A stretch of DNA of 38,726 bases from Mesoaciditoga lauensis cd-1655R = DSM 25116 (lineage in GTDB: Bacteria > Thermotogota > Thermotogae > Mesoaciditogales > Mesoaciditogaceae): the NCBI RefSeq assembly GCF_000745455.1, contig NZ_JQJI01000022.1:1-38726 (forward strand). The letters run 5' to 3'. A program made the position numbers and the translations under genes. Numbering within the stretch: position 1 is the first letter of the stretch; every line of letters begins with the position of its first letter. Under the pieces are notes generated by a model. It was not told where the DNA came from and ran no database searches. It saw only the letters and a program-made list of their open reading frames with translations. Shown here one piece after another: positions 114 to 38,726 of the stretch.

Positions 114-119
114 AAACTT

Positions 120-290
120 ACATTGTGTGTCGACGTTACAAAGTATTTCAAAAAAAATCAAATCTCACTCTCGAAGTACTTGTCAGAACAGATGAGCTCT
201 CATTAGATTAGAGCCTTTGACCTTTCTGTCATACTAAACCAGCCATAGGCTGTCCTGAGCTTGACTCAGGATCTCATATTTTGAATTGAA
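120..290 (+). repeat. Decayed R3-type palindromic repeat with replaced interior
   Basis: The left part (120-204) matches the intact R3 copy that begins near 2990: the flank ACATTGTGTGTC, then the outer arm TCGAAGTACTTGTCAGAAC at 171-189, then the internal-loop segment ATGAGCTC. The end of the second stem survives at 273-287 (CTCATATTTTGAATT). The two-hairpin head of an R3 element is missing, and an unrelated hairpin lies in its place at 253-271. The closing outer arm is absent or eroded. Confidence 0.6.
253..271. repeat. REP-like hairpin (TCCTGAG/CTCAGGA)
   Basis: This is a perfect 7-bp inverted repeat, TCCTGAG at 253-259 and CTCAGGA at 265-271, with loop CTTGA. From memory the word resembles a hairpin repeat seen in many bacterial genomes; I could not check this. 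Here it sits inside the remains of an R3 repeat and so probably inserted into it or recombined with it. Confidence 0.5.
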
Positions 291-1218: not shown

Positions 1219-1276
1219 TGAAGTTTTGTTAAATAAAACATATGAAGACGCCATACAAGATGCGAAATAATAGAGT
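1219..1276 (+). repeat. R2-type repeat, 5' half only
   Basis: A degenerate outer arm is followed by ATATGAAGACG at 1239-1250 and the left half of the second stem (CCATACAAGATGCGAAATAA...) up to TAGAG at about 1275. The element then breaks into a pyrimidine-rich linker (1277-1301) leading straight into an R1 copy. The same R2-half/linker/R1 junction recurs at 8008-8128 and, inverted, at 26207-26290. Confidence 0.75.
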
Positions 1277-1301
1277 TTTTTCTTCCCTCTTCTCCTTTAT
1301 C

Positions 1302-1472
1302 GAAACACTTGCCGGCACTTATGAACTCTCCATCTGAAGACTCATAAAACGAGGTTGGGAAACACACGGATGTGTTGAAAAAGCGAAGCACTCATGGACG
1401 AGTGTCTGAGCGTGCCTCGTTTTTTGAGTCGTAAGATGGATAAAAGAGTGAATCCGTGCCTGCAAGTGTTTC
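1302..1472 (+). repeat. R1-type nested palindrome, complete 171-bp copy
   Basis: The outer arms are GAAACACTTGCCGGCAC (1302-1318) and the complement at 1456-1472. The second stem pairs 1330-1354 with 1415-1439 at 22 of 25 positions. The head carries hairpin H1 (AACACA-CGGA-TGTGTT, 1361-1376), the joining segment GAAAAAGCGAAG, and hairpin H2 (CACTC-ATGGAC-GAGTG, 1389-1404). Unpaired segments TTATGAACTCT and GAGTGAATCC form an asymmetric internal loop. Open frames crossing it exist only because the palindrome lacks stops and are not genes. Whether it acts as DNA or RNA is not known. Confidence 0.85.
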
Positions 1473-1513
1473 AAATTAATTATGGCTTTTCTCTGCCTTT
1501 CTCTCTTCCTTTT

Positions 1514-1697
1514 TTGAAGTTTCTGCCAAAACATATGAAGACGCCATAGAAGATGCGAAATAACAGAGTTGGAGGCACACGATGTGCCGAGAAAGCGAAT
1601 CTAACAGGACGTTTGTATGCAGCGGGCTCTGTTATGAGCATCTTGTATGGGTATACGTCTGAATCAGTTTTGACAAAACTTCAAAAATTCTTTTTCG
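1514..1697 (+). repeat. R2-type nested palindrome, complete 171-bp copy plus tail
   Basis: The outer arms are TTGAAGTTTCTGCCAAAAC (1514-1532) and the complement ending at 1684. The second stem pairs 1544-1568 with 1627-1650. H1 is GGCACA-CGA-TGTGCC (1574-1588), then GAGAAAGCGAA, then a weak H2 around AACAGGACGTT. The tail AAAAATTCTTTTTCG (to about 1697) is shared with the copy at 8339-8521. The element ends 10 bases from the stop codon of the MFS gene, which reads toward it. It is joined to the preceding R1 by a 41-base linker (1473-1513) also found in the other arrays. Confidence 0.85.
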
Positions 1698-1707
1698 TGT
1701 GCATAAC

Positions 1708-2874
1708 TCATATATTCACTTTTTCTTTGAAGAAAAAAAGTATCATAAAAAATGCGGAAAGTACGAGGGTACACATAACAAGAAAGGCATTTTCATAGCC
1801 AAAGAGCTGAGACATCATTCCGGCCGTTAAGGATCCTAACACCACTCCCACAGAACGTGCGGATGTGAAAAGGCCCATGAACTTCCCTCTCAAACTTGAG
1901 GAAACTGCGAAGGAAATGTAAGTTGTCGTTCCTGAAATAAAAGCTCCATATCCTAGTCCCAGACAACTGTATGCTGATGCTATGCCAAGGGGGCTTTTCC
2001 AAACGGCAAAAAATAGAAGTGATAACACTGAAAAAAACATTCCAAAAAGAATAGATGGTTTTGAGTTTCTCTTTTTCTCTGCCATTCGCGCAAAGAAGAG
2101 AATGGAAAATATTTGCACTAATGGGTTCAAACTCGCCAGAAAACCAACCATGAATGGAGAAAGCTTTACACCATAAACCATATACACGGCGGCTATTGAC
2201 AACATGCCGTTTACTCCAAATTGTCTTAAAAACGTTCCCACGTATATGCTCCACAAATTGCTCTCTCTCATAAGTTTCATGTCTTCCATGTTGAAAAACA
2301 ACTTTCTCTTTTTCGTATCGCGGTGATTGTTTCTTTCCTTAATCCAAAATAGCGGAATAACGCTTATGGTAAATATCAATATGAAGATCCACAAGGATGT
2401 TTTAACTGATATGATTAGCAAGGTGAATCCTATCATGATTTTTGAAGTGAAATTTCCAATTGAAATGGCCGTGTTGAAAAAGGAAATTTCAACTCCTCTT
2501 CTTTTGGAATTTTCGGATGAAAGTGCTGTGGCTATTGGGGTGAATCCAGAGTTTGCAGCCGCAAAAATTGAAACAAGAATTATGATAAGCAAGGGAGTTG
2601 AAGCGGATGGATAGAATAGAAGCACAAGCAGAGAAATAAGTGATGATATCAAAAGATAGCGCTTTCTTCCATGTTTATCCGATAACGAACCCCATATTGG
2701 CGAAAATATGATCGTTGCTAAACCTCTTAAAGAAGACATACTTCCAATTTCCAAAAGTGAGGCACCAAGATCGGCCATATAAAGTTGTAGAACAACAGAA
2801 ATGCCGGCAGTAGATGTTATTCTAAAAAAGGTTGACAATAGAAGTGGCAAACGTTTCTTCAAAATCTTAGCCAT
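1708..2874 (-). CDS. Major facilitator superfamily transporter
   Basis: The 388-residue protein has about 12 hydrophobic segments and a basic cytoplasmic loop near the middle (KERNNHRDTKKRK), as in MFS carriers of 12 membrane helices. The MFS loop 2-3 signature is clear: GSLSDKHGRKRYL near residue 62. Family knowledge says such proteins move small solutes or drugs across the inner membrane by proton coupling, but the substrate cannot be told from sequence. The start has AGGATG about 9 bases upstream. The gene is monocistronic. Downstream there is no ordinary terminator; the R2 palindrome starts 10 bases beyond the stop and may end transcription. Confidence 0.88.
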   Translation of the reverse strand: MAKILKKRLPLLLSTFFRITSTAGISVVLQLYMADLGASLLEIGSMSSLRGLATIIFSPIWGSLSDKHGRKRYLLISSLISLLVLLFYPSASTPLLIIILVSIFAAANSGFTPIATALSSENSKRRGVEISFFNTAISIGNFTSKIMIGFTLLIISVKTSLWIFILIFTISVIPLFWIKERNNHRDTKKRKLFFNMEDMKLMRESNLWSIYVGTFLRQFGVNGMLSIAAVYMVYGVKLSPFMVGFLASLNPLVQIFSILFFARMAEKKRNSKPSILFGMFFSVLSLLFFAVWKSPLGIASAYSCLGLGYGAFISGTTTYISFAVSSSLRGKFMGLFTSARSVGVVLGSLTAGMMSQLFGYENAFLVMCTLVLSAFFMILFFFKEKVNI

Positions 2875-2990
2875 TTTTTCACATCCTGCAAATTTTTCAA
2901 ATCAACTTAAATGATAACATAGCAAGTTAGCTAAACGTATTATTTTCTTGTTCGCATTTTTTGACAGTTGAAAGTCTTAATAGTAACTCC

Positions 2991-3250
2991 CATTGTGCGT
3001 CAATGTTACAAAGCATTTCAAAAAAGGATTAAACTTCACCCTCGAAGTACTTGTCAGAACATATGAGCTCCCATCTGGAGATTCAAAATATGAGGTTGAG
3101 AGGTCACAGGACGTGTCGAGAAAGCGAAGCACTCACGGATGAGTGTCTGAGCGTGCCTCATATTTTGAATCAGAAGATGGAAAAAGGAGCGAATCCGTTC
3201 TGACAGGACTTCGAAAAAAATTGCCTTGGGCGCTTGAAAAGCGGATCCTA
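2991..3250 (+). repeat. R3-type nested palindrome, complete copy with flanks
   Basis: The palindrome proper is 3042-3214 (173 bp). The outer arm TCGAAGTACTTGTCAGAAC (3042-3060) pairs with 3197-3214. The second stem pairs 3071-3095 with 3156-3180 at 22 of 25 positions. The head has H1 around CAC-AGGAC-GTG, the joining segment GAGAAAGCGAAG, and H2 CACTCA-CGGA-TGAGTG (3129-3144). The left flank (2991-3041) matches 121-170. The right flank contains CGCTT-GAA-AAGCG (3231-3243), a hairpin present at the same place in the other R3 copies. The rest of the gap up to 3450 is AT-rich with no clear promoter. Confidence 0.85.
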
Positions 3251-3450
3251 AATCAAAAACGTTGTACTCAAATGTTGCTCACATGTTTTCATAAAAAAAT
3301 TTTTGTAATGTCTCTTGTAATACTTTTCGTAATGTTCACGCACAGCATGAGTAGTAAAATAGTTCATTGAGACATCACACAACATGGCAAGAATCTCAAA
3401 TAGAAAGGCAGGCGAAGCGGCATTTACAAAATTTTTCCGCCGCGAACTCG

Positions 3451-4104
3451 ATGAAATACTTTTTTTCTTTTCTTTTGATAATTGGCAGTTTACTCTTGTT
3501 TATTTACTATGCGGTTGCAGAGCATCTTTTATCTTTTTCCGAGCCTTCTATACAACGTTTTTTGGAATCGCAGTATTTTCCATCCTTACTATGGCTGGGA
3601 TTATTACTTATCGTGTTTTCTTTATTTTCACTTTTAATCTATGGAATTTATAAAAGAAGCATTTTGTCAAGATTGAAAAAAGAGTTTTACAGATTCGAAG
3701 AAAGAGGCGACGGCAAAGAATTTGAAGAGTTTCTTGCTCATCTTTTTAAAGCATGTGGATGGAAGGTAACGACACCTACTCCTTCTACAAATGCTTCTGA
3801 TCAAGGAATAGATCTAATACTGGATTCTAAAGTGGCAGTTCAAGCCAAACATTATACAAACTCAACAGGTAACAAAGCTGTTCAAGAGGTAATGTCGGGG
3901 TTGATTTATTGGAAGAAGCATGGTTTTCCACATCTTAAATGGAAAGCCGTGGTTACGACTTCCTATTTTACCCATCAGGCTATTGAACTTGCCAAAAGTG
4001 GGAATGTGGTTTTAAAGGAAGGAATAGACATAGAAGAATTGCTAAACGGCAAGCTTTCAAAAAAGTGGATTTTGAAAATGCCAAAAAGATTTTTAGAAGA
4101 ATGA
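3451..4104 (+). CDS. Membrane-anchored Mrr-like restriction endonuclease domain protein
   Basis: The protein has two hydrophobic helices (residues about 3-22 and 44-66 counted from this start) followed by a cytoplasmic nuclease domain. The domain keeps the Mrr/PD-(D/E)XK pattern: GIDLILD with an acidic residue (D121), then a strand ending QAKHY (Q131, K133), as in type IV Mrr-like enzymes. Known members cut DNA, often modified or foreign. Two-helix membrane forms occur in bacterial conflict systems, but no partner gene is seen here. The start is uncertain. The frame stays open to a TTG at 3367, and another frame from ATG 3384 encodes a charged N-terminus, so a frameshift near the T-run at 3459-3467 is possible. 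It is followed after 13 bases by the PfkB kinase, probably co-transcribed. Confidence 0.75.
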   Translation: MKYFFSFLLIIGSLLLFIYYAVAEHLLSFSEPSIQRFLESQYFPSLLWLGLLLIVFSLFSLLIYGIYKRSILSRLKKEFYRFEERGDGKEFEEFLAHLFKACGWKVTTPTPSTNASDQGIDLILDSKVAVQAKHYTNSTGNKAVQEVMSGLIYWKKHGFPHLKWKAVVTTSYFTHQAIELAKSGNVVLKEGIDIEELLNGKLSKKWILKMPKRFLEE

Positions 4105-4117
4105 CAGGAGGTAAATT

Positions 4118-5041
4118 ATGATATTCACGTTGACGCTCAACCCGAGTCTTGATAGATACCTTTACGTTGATGAGCTAAAAGAAGACGACACAATGCGAGT
4201 GAACAAAGTTGAAGATTACGCTGCTGGTAAAGGTATCGATGTTTCAAGAGTGATAAAGGAAATTGGAGGTACATCTGTTGCCATCTGCCCTCTTGGAGGC
4301 GAAAATGGAGAAAAGATCTCTTTTTTGCTTGATGATGAGTTGGTGCTATATGCCGGAATTAGAGTAAAAAAAGAAACCAGAATGAATGTGCTCGTACAGA
4401 CAAAGGAAAAACAGTACAGAATGAGTCTTCCTGGTCCTACTTTATCCGACAAGGAATTTTCTATGATCACCTCTATGCTTGATGCGACTTTAAGAGAGGG
4501 GGATACCCTTGTGGCCAGCGGTAGCCTTCCTTTGGGCTTCTCTCCTGAAACGTATTACGAGATCACCAATTTGGCAAAATCAAAGGGAGCTAATGTTTAC
4601 GTCGATAGCGATGGAGAAAATCTGAAAGCAGCACTCAGAGCCCATCCAACCGGGATAAAACCGAACATTTATGAACTTTCCCGTTTGGCAGGTAAAGAGA
4701 TAAAAAATGAAGCTGAAATCCTGGAAGTGGCAAAACATATAAGCAAAGAATACGGTGTAAAAGATGTGCTTATAACCCTTGGAAAAGAAGGAGCAATAGC
4801 TTTATGTGAAGGAAAAGCCTACAAGCTCTTTCCAATAGATGTTGAAGTGTTGAGCGCTGTCGGGGCTGGTGATGCGTTTCTAGCAGGATTTGTTTACAAG
4901 AGAAATTCTTCTTTGGATGAAGCCTTGAAATTCGCACTAGCAGCAAGCACGGCAACTGTCATGACACCCGGAACAATGCTCTGCTTAAAAAAAGATGTTG
5001 ATCGATTGCTTAAAAAAGCAAAAATCTCTCAAATATATTAA
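4118..5041 (+). CDS. PfkB-family 1-phosphofructokinase-like hexose kinase
   Basis: The 307-residue protein starts MIFTLTLNPSLDRYLYV, typical of the FruK/LacC branch of PfkB sugar kinases. AGKGIDVSRV follows near residue 37, and the catalytic/anion-hole signature VGAGDAFLAGF lies near residue 248. Family members phosphorylate fructose 1-phosphate or tagatose 6-phosphate with ATP in the cytoplasm. No PTS or tagatose genes are nearby, so the substrate is open. A strong AGGAGG ribosome site lies 7 bases before the ATG. It probably shares a transcript with the nuclease upstream. The stop codon lies 3 bases before the remnant of an R3 repeat, so the 3' end was a repeat insertion or recombination point. 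Confidence 0.87.
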   Translation: MIFTLTLNPSLDRYLYVDELKEDDTMRVNKVEDYAAGKGIDVSRVIKEIGGTSVAICPLGGENGEKISFLLDDELVLYAGIRVKKETRMNVLVQTKEKQYRMSLPGPTLSDKEFSMITSMLDATLREGDTLVASGSLPLGFSPETYYEITNLAKSKGANVYVDSDGENLKAALRAHPTGIKPNIYELSRLAGKEIKNEAEILEVAKHISKEYGVKDVLITLGKEGAIALCEGKAYKLFPIDVEVLSAVGAGDAFLAGFVYKRNSSLDEALKFALAASTATVMTPGTMLCLKKDVDRLLKKAKISQIY

Positions 5042-5043
5042 AG

Positions 5044-5165
5044 AAGAGCGAATCCGTTCTGACAGGGTTTCGAAAGAAATCACCTTGACCGCTTGGAAAG
5101 CGGTAGTGAAATGTCAAAGGATGCTATTATTCGAAATATGTTACCCCCACAATCCCGTAGAGAAC
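5044..5165 (+). repeat. R3-type repeat, right half and tail only
   Basis: The sequence begins inside the 3' internal loop (GAGCGAATCC), continues through the outer arm GTTCTGACAGG, and carries the R3 tail with hairpin ACCGCTT-GGA-AAGCGGT. The tail matches 35327-35417 almost to the end (ATGCTATTATTCGAAATATG is identical). The left half is missing. It begins directly after the stop codon of the PfkB-like kinase. Confidence 0.75.
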
Positions 5166-7845: not shown

Positions 7846-7882
7846 TGCAATAGCAAATGATGAATAACTTTTGATGTGCATC

Positions 7883-7995
7883 AAGTTTAAGAAATCAATT
7901 GGAAAATCTTCGGCATTGAATGAACCCTCCTCGCCAACTTCGTTGGCTCCTCCTCCCAGTTTTGGGCGGAGACTAAAGAAAAGAAGTAATGAATC
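7883..7995 (+). repeat. R4 intergenic repeat
   Basis: The element runs from GTTTAAGAAATCAATT to GAAGTAATGAAT. It contains a perfect hairpin GCCAAC-TTC-GTTGGC (7933-7947) followed by CCCA-GTTT-TGGG inside CTCCCAGTTTTGGGCGGAG. An inverted copy lies at 26529-26677. In both places R4 leads into R1/R2-type repeats, so it may be an end module of the same arrays. It lies 38 bases after the radical SAM gene. Confidence 0.7.
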
Positions 7996-8007
7996 CTTCT
8001 CTGTCCC

Positions 8008-8103
8008 TTGAAGTTTCTGTCAAAACATATGAAGACGCCATACAAGATGTGAAATAACAGAGTTGGAGGCACACGACGTGCCGAGAAAGCGAATCTAACA
8101 GAG
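8008..8103 (+). repeat. R2-type repeat, 5' part
   Basis: The outer arm TTGAAGTTTCTGTCAAAAC, left second-stem arm (CCATACAAGATGTG...), H1 GGCACACGACGTGCC and the joining segment GAGAAAGCGAATC are intact. The sequence then jumps at CTAACAGAG into a linker (GCTTTTTTCTTC) before R1. It carries more of the head than the copy at 1219. Confidence 0.75.
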
Positions 8104-8127
8104 CTTTTTTCTTCTCCACCCAACTTC

Positions 8128-8298
8128 GAAACACTAGCCAGCACTTATGAACTCACCATCTGAAGACTCATAAAAACGAGGTTGGAAAACACACGGATGT
8201 GTTGAGAAAGCGAAGCACTCATGGACGAGTGTCTGAGCGTGCCTCGTTTTTTGAGTCGTAGGGTGGATAAAAGAGTGAATTTGTGATGGCATGTGTTT
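8128..8298 (+). repeat. R1-type nested palindrome, complete 171-bp copy
   Basis: The architecture and length match the copy at 1302-1472. H1 is AACACA-CGGA-TGTGTT, the joining segment GAGAAAGCGAAG, and H2 CACTC-ATGGAC-GAGTG. The right outer arm (GTGATGGCATGTGTTT) has drifted and pairs less well than in the first copy. Confidence 0.8.
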
Positions 8299-8338
8299 TG
8301 AGTTAATTACGTTTTTCTTCTCCTTTCTCTCCCCTTTT

Positions 8339-8521
8339 TTGGAGTTTCTGTCAAAACATATGAAGACGCCATACAAGATGTGAAATAACAGAGTTGGAGG
8401 CACACGACGTGCCGAGAAAGCGAATCTAATAGGATGTTTGTATGCAGCGGGCTCTGTTATGAGCATCTTGTATGGAGATACGTCTGAATCAGTTTTGACA
8501 AAACTTCAAAAATTCTTTTTC
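8339..8521 (+). repeat. R2-type nested palindrome, complete copy plus tail
   Basis: The palindrome runs from 8339 to 8509 (171 bp), with the same stems as the copy at 1514-1684 and a tail AAAAATTCTTTTTCG to 8521. It ends 14 bases from the stop codon of pyk, which reads toward it. The arrangement is the same as at the MFS gene. No other terminator is seen for the long pyk operon. Confidence 0.85.
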
Positions 8522-25985: not shown

Positions 25986-26037
25986 CAAAATTAACAATTT
26001 TATCGGGACGAAAAGACGGTCATTGAAAATATTTATC

Positions 26038-26207
26038 GAAACTCAGCCGGCACGGATTCACTCTTTTATCCATCTTACGGCTCAAAAAACAAGGCACGCT
26101 CAGACACTCATCCATGAGTGCTTCGCTTTCTCAACACGTCCATGTGTTTCCCAACCTCGTTTTTAGAGTCTTCAGATGGAGAGTTCATAAGTGCCGGCAG
26201 GTGTTTC
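26038..26207 (-). repeat. R1-type nested palindrome, complete copy (inverted)
   Basis: This is a 170-bp copy in reverse orientation, with the same stems, joining segment and hairpins as 1302-1472. H1 shows loop change CGGA to TGGA and H2 reads CACTCA-TGGA-TGAGTG. It begins 53 bases after the PEGA gene stop. The gap 25986-26723 is almost wholly filled by repeats; open frames through it are not credible genes. Confidence 0.82.
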
Positions 26208-26235
26208 GATAAACGGGAAGCGGAAGAAAAAGAAA

Positions 26236-26290
26236 CTCTGTTATTTCACATCTTGTATGGCGTCTTCATATGTTTTGACAGAAACTTCAA
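26236..26290 (-). repeat. R2-type repeat, 5' half (inverted)
   Basis: Read on the minus strand, it has the outer arm TTGAAGTTTCTGTCAAAAC, ATATGAAGACG and the left second-stem arm ending AACAGAG. It then breaks into the pyrimidine linker joining R1, as at 1276 and 8103. Confidence 0.75.
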
Positions 26291-26330
26291 AAAAATGAGA
26301 GGGAAAGGCAGAGAAAAGCATGATTAATCC

Positions 26331-26501
26331 GAAACACATTCCAGCACGGATTCACTCTTTTATCCATCTTATGACTCAAAAAACGAGGCACGCTCAGACA
26401 CTCATCCATGAGTGCTTCGCTTTCTCAACACGTCCATGTGTTTCCCAACCTCGTTTTTAGAGTCTTCAGATGGCGAGTTCATAAGTGCCGTCAGGTGTTT
26501 C
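26331..26501 (-). repeat. R1-type nested palindrome, complete copy (inverted)
   Basis: This is a 171-bp reverse-orientation copy with intact second stem and both head hairpins. It is joined to the R2 half on its left by the 40-base linker (26291-26330) that also joins R1 to R2 at 1473-1513. Confidence 0.82.
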
Positions 26502-26528
26502 GATAAAGGAGAAGAGGAAGAAGAAAAA

Positions 26529-26677
26529 AGCTCTATTATATTCGTTACTTCTTCTCTTTAGTCTCCGCCCAAAACTGGGAGGAGAGCGCCAACAAGGTTG
26601 GCGAAGAGGGTTGCATTTTTTCTTTTTCCCTCTTGACTTTCAATACCGAAGAGTTTTAAATTGATTTCTTAAACTTA
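26529..26677 (-). repeat. R4 intergenic repeat (inverted copy)
   Basis: On the minus strand it runs from GTTTAAGAAATCAATTTAAA to TAGAGCTTTTTT. It contains GCCAAC-CTT-GTTGGC (loop differs from the 7883 copy, arms identical) and CTCCCAGTTTTGGGCGGAG. It lies 46 bases before the start of the FAD reductase gene. Confidence 0.7.
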
Positions 26678-34995: not shown

Positions 34996-35030
34996 AGTAC
35001 GTCTGAATTGGTTTTGACAAAACTTCAAAA
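34996..35030 (+). repeat. R2-type repeat, 3' end only
   Basis: The stretch TACGTCTGAATTGGTTTTGACAAAACTTCAAAAA matches the 3' internal loop and outer arm of R2 at 1653-1687. The rest of the element is absent. It stands about 120 bases before a complete R3 copy. Confidence 0.65.
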
Positions 35031-35152
35031 AATTTTGGTTCTCATCAGTTTAGTGCGGGTAAAACATGCCGATTCTCTATTCTGTCTGTTGTTGTAGTTC
35101 TGAATAAAATCATTCCAAAATACCTTGTTATCAAGTAAAAGAACAAGCACCC

Positions 35153-35417
35153 TCGAAGTACTTGTCAGAACATATGAGCTCTCCATCTGGAAATTCACAA
35201 ATATGAGGTTGAGAGACACAGGACGTGCCGAGAAAGCGAAGCACTCACGGACGAGTGTCTGAGCGTGCCTCGTATTTTGAATTGTAAGATGGACAAAAGA
35301 GCGAATCCGTTCTGACAGAACTTCGAAAAAAATATATTGATCGCTTGGAAAGTGGTAGTAAAATGTCAAAGATGCTATTATTCGAAATATGTTATCCACG
35401 CAAATTCGTAAAGAACT
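35153..35417 (+). repeat. R3-type nested palindrome, complete copy with tail
   Basis: The palindrome is 35153-35326 (174 bp): outer arm TCGAAGTACTTGTCAGAAC, second stem starting CCATCTGGAAATTC, joining segment GAGAAAGCGAAG, and H2 CACTCA-CGGA-CGAGTG. The tail to about 35417 matches 5075-5165. It includes the hairpin ATCGCTT-GGA-AAGTGGT, whose base changes keep pairing through G-T wobbles. It lies 46 bases before the phospholipase-D-like gene. Confidence 0.85.
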
Positions 35418-35462
35418 AAAATTTTTCAGGGTGAAAACTGAATTTTCTGAAAGGATTCCAAA

Positions 35463-38423: not shown

Positions 38424-38726
38424 TTATCTAAAGCGCCTGTGAGTAATCTTGAACTCGTTCAGCTTTTCAAAGAAAACATTCCTAAGCCCGGCATAAATCA
38501 TCTCATTTCTAAATCTCGTATAGAACGAATATCTTCCGTCTTTGACAATGTTCTCTCTCATCTCATACATAACCATGTACGCAAGCGTGTACGTGCATAA
38601 CAACGCGAGCAATCTTTTCTCATTCATCCCATTCGAATATTTTCCAAAGCCCATTCCACTCTTGTAATCCCTAAAGGTCTCTTCTATGAAAAATCTCTTT
38701 CGGTATGTGTCCACTATGTACAAGGG
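38424..38726 (-). mobile_element. IS4-like DDE transposase, C-terminal part cut by the window edge
   Basis: About 100 residues of the C-terminus are visible; the gene continues past 38726. YRKRFFIEETFRDYKS fits the IS4-family Y-(2)-R-(3)-E-(6)-K motif around the catalytic glutamate. The helical LLALLCTYTLAYMVMYEM that follows is also typical. It lies downstream of no partner gene here. An element end may occur near 38389-38400 (CTGACAGGGCCCC), but the other end is not visible, so this cannot be confirmed. Confidence 0.75.

Follow-up and report, generated by a model that had tools for sequence, protein, structure and literature searches.

The intergenic repeats R1, R2 and R3 share a structured core of 170–174 bp that is a diverged form of the TwoAYGGAY-type fold, carried as cargo by several types of MITE. 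The finding is real and unusual, but the fold is not wholly new; what is new here is that MITEs with unrelated ends have a TwoAYGGAY-like fold as their common interior. The original prediction offered the repeats as the best candidate for an undescribed system. In that respect it needs amendment, as the head adopts a diverged version of a motif already known, TwoAYGGAY, and the copies are MITE-borne; for the tie of the motif to mobile DNA we found no earlier description.

Repeat copies and their fold

The window, that is, the whole stretch of 38,726 nucleotides analysed, contains eight complete copies of the three repeats, all within 1–2 bases at most of the positions originally given for them (Table 1). 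R1 and R2 form arrays in which a truncated R2, ending at position 57 or 94, closely precedes R1. In the window arrays (1235–1686, 7874–8511 and 26046–26584) about 25 pyrimidine-rich bases lie between the R2 fragment and R1, and a full R2 often comes next.

Table 1. Repeat cores, repeat fragments and carrier elements in the window; scores are those of the host-built covariance model unless another is named.
Feature	Position	Strand	Score and remarks
Unit A left-end fragment with R3 positions 1–33	117..203	+	
R2 fragment (R2 positions 15–57), directly 5′ of R1	1235..1277	+	mosaic array
R1 core, complete	about 1300–1473 (1302..1471)	+	182.8 bits; RF01731 29 bits at 1322–1447
Head-hairpin loops of the R1 core at 1302..1471	1366–1371; 1394–1399	+	ACGGAT; ATGGAC
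R2 core, complete	1514..1686	+	118.8 bits, model built without R2
Unit A MITE, 365 bp	2987..3351	+	inverted ends 2987–3017 and 3321–3351 (CTCN..TTGTGCGTSAA..); R3 core central; target duplication TAGTAA on both sides
R3 core within unit A	3042..3213	+	184.7 bits
Unit B right-half fragment (R3 positions 140–172 and right arm)	5040..5165	+	
R2 fragment (positions 1–94), 5′ of R1	8008..8101	+	
R1 core, complete	about 8126–8300 (8128..8298)	+	178.2 bits
R2 core, complete	8339..8511	+	115.7 bits
R1 core, complete, inverted	26037..26209	-	183.4 bits
R2 fragment (positions 1–57)	26234..26290	-	separates the two inverted R1 cores
R1 core, complete, inverted	26330..26503	-	174.8 bits
R2 3′ fragment (positions 141–173)	34998..35030	+	adjoins unit B
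Unit B MITE, 381 bp	35037..35417	+	ends GGTTCTCATCAGTTTAGTG../..AAAGAACT; R3 core central; 8-bp target duplication AAAATTTT at 35029–35036 and 35418–35425
R3 core within unit B	35153..35325	+	197.0 bits

In the host, a Mesoaciditoga-like bacterium of the Thermotogota, sampling of 758.6 kb of the genome yielded 70 near-complete copies (30 of R1, 13 of R2 and 27 of R3) and 48 fragments, grouped in 71 clusters. If the density is even, the 2.17-Mb genome would hold approximately 200 complete copies. Nearly all of them are intergenic, in both orientations, and the orientation of copies relative to genes shows no significant overall bias (35 versus 48, p = 0.19). An apparent bias of R1 against both neighbours, 18 to 3 in the first sample, fell to 22 to 11 in an enlarged set, some loci of which overlap the first sample; R3 shows no such bias, and the preference was discarded. 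The strand opposite the fold stays open across the cores, and the resulting ORFs of about 110–124 aa (LTIQNTRHAQTLVRECFAFS...; window 35025–35399 and 8134–8466 (-)) are probably spurious, although gene callers may report them as proteins. A short REP-like palindromic repeat at 240–272, CAGCCATAGGCTGTCCTGAGCTTGACTCAGGATCTCA, is apparently unrelated to R1–R3.

Each of the eight complete copies folds as a single long interrupted hairpin. In the three copies tested, the folding energy is -74 to -79 kcal/mol compared with means of -37 to -43 for shuffled sequences (z = -8.4, -9.3 and -9.9), and none of 200 shuffles was equally stable. The nested plan first proposed for the repeats holds overall, except that its second stem of 24–25 bp resolves into 6 bp (CCATCT/AGATGG), a 3×3 internal loop and then 17 bp. 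R1 and R3 show the two-hairpin head clearly, but it is missing from the minimum-energy fold of R2 itself, even though R2 aligns with the model over its full length. All three families have tandem G.A pairs (TGA/GAA) within the asymmetric outer internal loop; in the alignments they are seen as ATGA/GAAT in this loop and as GCGAAGC/GTCTGAGC in the second hairpin. In two loci (L190 at about 2138–2260 and L210 at about 1115), the first head hairpin is preceded by a foreign hairpin stretch (GAGCGAGATTGCACTGTGTGCAATGTTTTCTCGC...), an insertion into the core.

Covariation was assessed in an alignment of 30 sequences, those of R1 and R3 together with relatives drawn from several other genomes, with R2 excluded and used as the test set; when R2 was included, RNAalifold lost the middle stem because R2 was misaligned. 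Among the 1803 cells of paired columns, 94.7% pair, compared with 32–40% when the partner is slid by 1–3 columns. Changes on both sides occur in 23 of the 61 pairs, and the cells changed on both sides number 140, compared with 52 ± 8 in shuffles that keep the relatedness of the copies. Both compensatory changes noticed originally are borne out, the change of GACTC/GAGTC to GATTC/GAATC at column pair 43/134 (UA 17, CG 13) and that of ACGAGG to ATGAGG at column pair 53/124 (CG 15, UA 12, UG 3). The model built from R1, R3 and their relatives, which had not seen R2, recovers both complete R2 copies (Table 1).

G.U cells are more frequent than A.C cells across families (65 versus 21; by site 27 versus 17, p = 0.17), an excess that we do not use as proof of the RNA strand, since the noted strand is the one that was folded to obtain the structure. 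The reverse strand also folds, with 30–48 bits. Among stem changes found in single copies, those that keep pairing are not in excess on the noted strand (62 versus 57 distinct changes), so the strand test is neutral.

Relation to TwoAYGGAY

To our knowledge, TwoAYGGAY (RF01731, clan CL00106) is so far without a settled function. In the accessible parts of the published accounts, the motif is reported from the human gut, gamma-Proteobacteria and Clostridiales (PMC2864571), and it is proposed to bind CsrA on the strength of the CsrA-site pattern, with tandem G.A pairs also reported (PMC4333381).

In the comparison with Rfam, RF01731 aligns with R1 from end to end, a full-length match with a sub-threshold score of 29 bits (E 0.071, cut-off 43). 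The window copies score below the curated gathering cut-off (43 bits) and are therefore not filed as RF01731 members; the search of the class gave no match in genome G000 at E 0.01. RF01731 reaches its cut-off in four genomes (G043, G053, G083 and G015) of one genus (g10, family f7), which we take to be a Marinitoga-like genus, and a fifth genome matches more weakly; there are 2–19 matches per genome. The host-built model matches copies in the same genus (best in G043, with 60.9 bits, E 1.3e-12), reaches 41.6 bits in a second genus of this family (G059) and gives weak matches in family f6. The two best loci (L298 and L302) are scored by RF01731 at 40.9 and 40.5 bits, and other copies in the genus at up to 50.8 bits; BLAST with the R1 head matches the same G043 loci. 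Since two independent models converge on the same loci, the simplest explanation is homology, and R1–R3 are a diverged branch of the TwoAYGGAY-type fold, cross-detected by both models.

The likeness consists in two hairpins with AYGGAY loops set on one long stem, tandem G.A pairs and the same strand. The loops are exact in R1 copies, while the first loops of R3 and R2 are one base shorter (AGGAY). The differences are the score of the window copies (29 versus 43 bits) and the occurrence of the motif in many copies inside MITEs, a feature absent from the accessible parts of both accounts (PMC2864571, PMC4333381). In a literature search conducted largely outside subscription journals, we found no description of a link between TwoAYGGAY and mobile DNA.

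Many of the model matches in two further genomes (G008 and G004) span the head alone (model positions 47–125 or 60–114), and the head may sit on other stems there. A contig of a gammaproteobacterial MAG (Granulosicoccaceae, L189:947–1055) contains a head with GGTTGAA..GAAAGCGAAGC..CTGAGCGTACC on a stem of its own, scoring 57.7 bits. This match is the sole one in its 6.8-Mb assembly; the follow-up around it covered 14 named genomes. Other matches to the exact pattern outside Thermotogota are probably due to chance, and the model recovers L189 only.

Mobile carriers of the core

R3 is housed in two different MITEs, and the window has one of each. Unit A measures 361–366 bp and has paired inverted ends CTCAYRTTGTGCGTSAAYRTTAC; unit B measures 382–387 bp (381 bp for the window copy), with paired inverted ends GGTTCTC..GTGTGGGTAAAACAT (also GGTTCTC..GTGTGGGTAA). 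Neither contains a coding gene. The terminal repeats lie about 25–100 bp outside the core and differ between carriers. Target duplications are of 7 bp in unit A (TAATGGA, TTATCAC, TCTTTTA, ATAAAAT and others) and of 8 bp in unit B (GTTTTTAC, GTTAAATT and AAAATTTT). Identical flanks of 6–8 bp were found in 8 of 15 unit A pairs selected by their TIRs, and of 8–11 bp in 4 of 7 unit B units, whereas about 2.5% of random pairs have identical flanks of at least 6 bp. One locus (C2:31050) joins the left half of unit B to the right half of unit A, fused through R3. Intergenic gaps of 43, 35 and 53 bp in a congener (G001) measure 814, 564 and 723 bp in the host, where they hold copies, and represent empty sites.

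The TwoAYGGAY copies of the Marinitoga-like genus take the form of foldback elements of about 230–370 bp with ends CAGACTGTTGACAAA../..TTTGTCTACAAACTG. A direct repeat of 18–28 bp, itself a hairpin and mostly terminator-like, stands on both sides of the element in 11 of 16 intact finds (about 10 of 15, one element having been counted on both strands). Whole-hairpin flanking copies are seen in L268–L302 (G053, G043; for example L286, L281 and L279), as if insertion had duplicated the terminator.

One core type recurs between mobile ends of at least three kinds, and we hold with high confidence that the repeats are MITEs with a TwoAYGGAY-like core. The original prediction named as one possible refutation a match to a known IS-derived MITE whose palindromy follows only from its terminal repeats; half of this applies, as the copies are MITE-borne, but their palindromy does not come from the terminal repeats. 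Searches for a parent gave no ISL3 transposase for unit B, no autonomous element with unit A ends among ten stretches and, by inspection, no transposase inside the TIR-flanked stretches examined. A transposase-looking ORF truncated at the contig end (window 38424–38723 (-)) has no Pfam match. Just past unit A starts a gene for a protein with an Mrr-type restriction endonuclease domain (PF04471; window 3367–4104 (+)).

Within unit A, the core departs from the consensus at 3.8% of sites compared with 6.9% and 9.7% in the arms, and it is the lower in 13 of 14 copies. These copies were chosen by their TIRs and replace an earlier set, chosen by R3 matches, that gave a larger contrast. Paired sites vary less than unpaired ones (2.8% versus 6.4%). 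The contrast is weak in unit B (n = 8 copies), with 5.8% in the core compared with 5.4% in the left arm and 8.5% in the other. These values suggest that the core is the part kept, and gene conversion among copies could contribute. Selection on the fold, as originally proposed, is supported by the compensatory changes between families and genera, by the recovery of the same fold in another family by a naive model, and by a core that is steadier in unit A than the arms around it.

Quasi-palindromes are known to self-correct, and the compensatory changes could in principle arise from template switching, together with the relatedness of the copies, if the repeats were no more than functionless palindromes of ordinary MITEs. 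In favour of this account, the copies form the interior of MITEs, and relatedness remains in the shuffle control. We nevertheless regard it as very improbable and already weakened, because template switching would be expected to remove the asymmetric loops (ATATGA opposite CGAATCC), which every family retains, and leaves the persistence of the tandem G.A pairs unexplained; the drop in pairing with slid partners, the same fold with other stems in another family and the steadier core of unit A speak against it as well.

Another alternative, which we consider unlikely, is that the fold works as DNA, with an extruded single-stranded hairpin serving as a substrate or enhancer of transposition, so that it is kept in mobile lineages while decaying in each copy. 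The mobility of the copies, their random orientation to genes and the lack of a strand preference in single-copy stem changes are in line with this view, and so is the fact that one-sided stem changes in unit B mostly abolish pairing (25 cases, against 17 in which G.U preserves it). However, the carriers have unrelated ends and duplicate 7 bp, 8 bp or an entire hairpin at their targets, so that no single transposase explains the one head, and two features specific to one strand, the GGA loops and the tandem G.A loops, have been kept.

A possible role in CsrA binding

R1–R3 are best understood as one family of structured cores placed centrally in non-autonomous MITEs, whose dispersal through the genome would be due to whichever transposases recognise the MITE ends. 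In the core, two hairpins that expose A(Y)GGAY cap a long stem with interruptions and tandem G.A loops. If transcribed on the noted strand, the head would present two CsrA-type sites and could act as a CsrA-binding RNA, either as a decoy whose effect is summed over many copies or as a site recruiting CsrA to the transcript that contains it. Elements bearing the core might be kept because CsrA binding makes their insertion neutral or useful. We give an even chance to this explanation as a whole, a mobile MITE-borne TwoAYGGAY-like core acting as a CsrA-binding RNA; the CsrA-binding role of the core, predicted from its sequence, is put tentatively at slightly below even.

GGA is retained in 223 of 234 head loops of R1, R2 and R3, next to a Y that switches freely between C and T; the first loop of R2 reads ACGAY in 8 of 25 copies. 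CsrA sites follow the pattern CAYGGAYG, and the head loops likewise present GGA in hairpin loops in the context CANGGANG. The host has a single csrA behind fliW (the latter named by eye), with equivalents of leucine 4 and of arginine 44, a residue of CsrA that contacts RNA. Of the 103 genomes of the class, 78 have csrA, as do 11 of the 12 that carry the fold; the gene was not seen in G008, which is rich in copies and whose genome is 87% complete. Because csrA is widespread in the class, its association with the fold is weak and confounded by descent, and its presence in fold-bearing genomes is permissive rather than proof. Against a CsrA-binding role stand the promoter-like sites near the window copies, which occur at chance level, the neutral strand test, the lack of a significant orientation bias, the ACGAY loops of R2, the G008 result and the weak core–arm contrast in unit B.

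The fold could also act in RNA by a route other than CsrA, as a transcript end or a processing or stabilising structure (an RNase III site, a 3′-end protector or an insulator) that makes intergenic insertion harmless. Such a role would fit the intergenic location of the copies, the folding of both strands (30–48 bits for the reverse) and the placement of the Marinitoga-like copies exactly in terminator-like hairpins. It appears decidedly unlikely to us, as no T-run follows the core, and it would leave unexplained both the GGA loops, which stay constant while the bases next to them vary freely, and the sequence-conserved head common to another family.

Among known systems, the CsrA sponge RNAs of CsrB/RsmZ type are similar in their GGA-loop hairpins matching CANGGANG, and the host has CsrA; they differ in that each is one long RNA, whereas here two predicted sites per element are dispersed in hundreds of copies. 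REP/BIME repeats of RAYT transposases are likewise high-copy extragenic palindromes in mosaic arrays, but in the accessible parts of the literature REPs are palindrome units of 20–40 bp, a size that excludes the R1–R3 cores, which measure 170–174 bp and lie inside TIR-type MITEs with target duplications. The sequences, ends and folds of BOX, RUP and SPRITE, compared from general knowledge rather than by alignment, differ from those of the R1–R3 carriers. These pneumococcal repeats are also small, intergenic and MITE-like, with clustering, nested insertions and, in some, terminator-like or RNA-like folds (PMC10969869), but in R1–R3 one fold is common to carriers with unrelated ends.

The occurrence of TwoAYGGAY as the common interior of MITEs with unrelated ends, at copy numbers of up to about 200 in a genome, provides the motif with an evolutionary setting and offers a direct test of a global regulator's binding site multiplying by transposition. 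About 200 natural variants are usable for mapping structure and binding. The same occurrence is a warning that models of "structured RNA" families may be models of mobile-element cores.

A broader scenario, which we offer as speculation and consider rather unlikely, is that TwoAYGGAY acts as a mobile module that binds CsrA: its RNA core, whether selfish or domesticated, would have been taken up by several unrelated MITE lineages, and its transposition would shift free CsrA up or down. In the Marinitoga-like genus, it would insert into and duplicate intrinsic terminators, so that a new RNA gene would arise beside a ready terminator, and the gammaproteobacterial head would hint at spread between phyla. 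At the left end of the Marinitoga-like elements, TTGACA is followed about 18 bp on by TAATAT, a lead for a promoter of their own.
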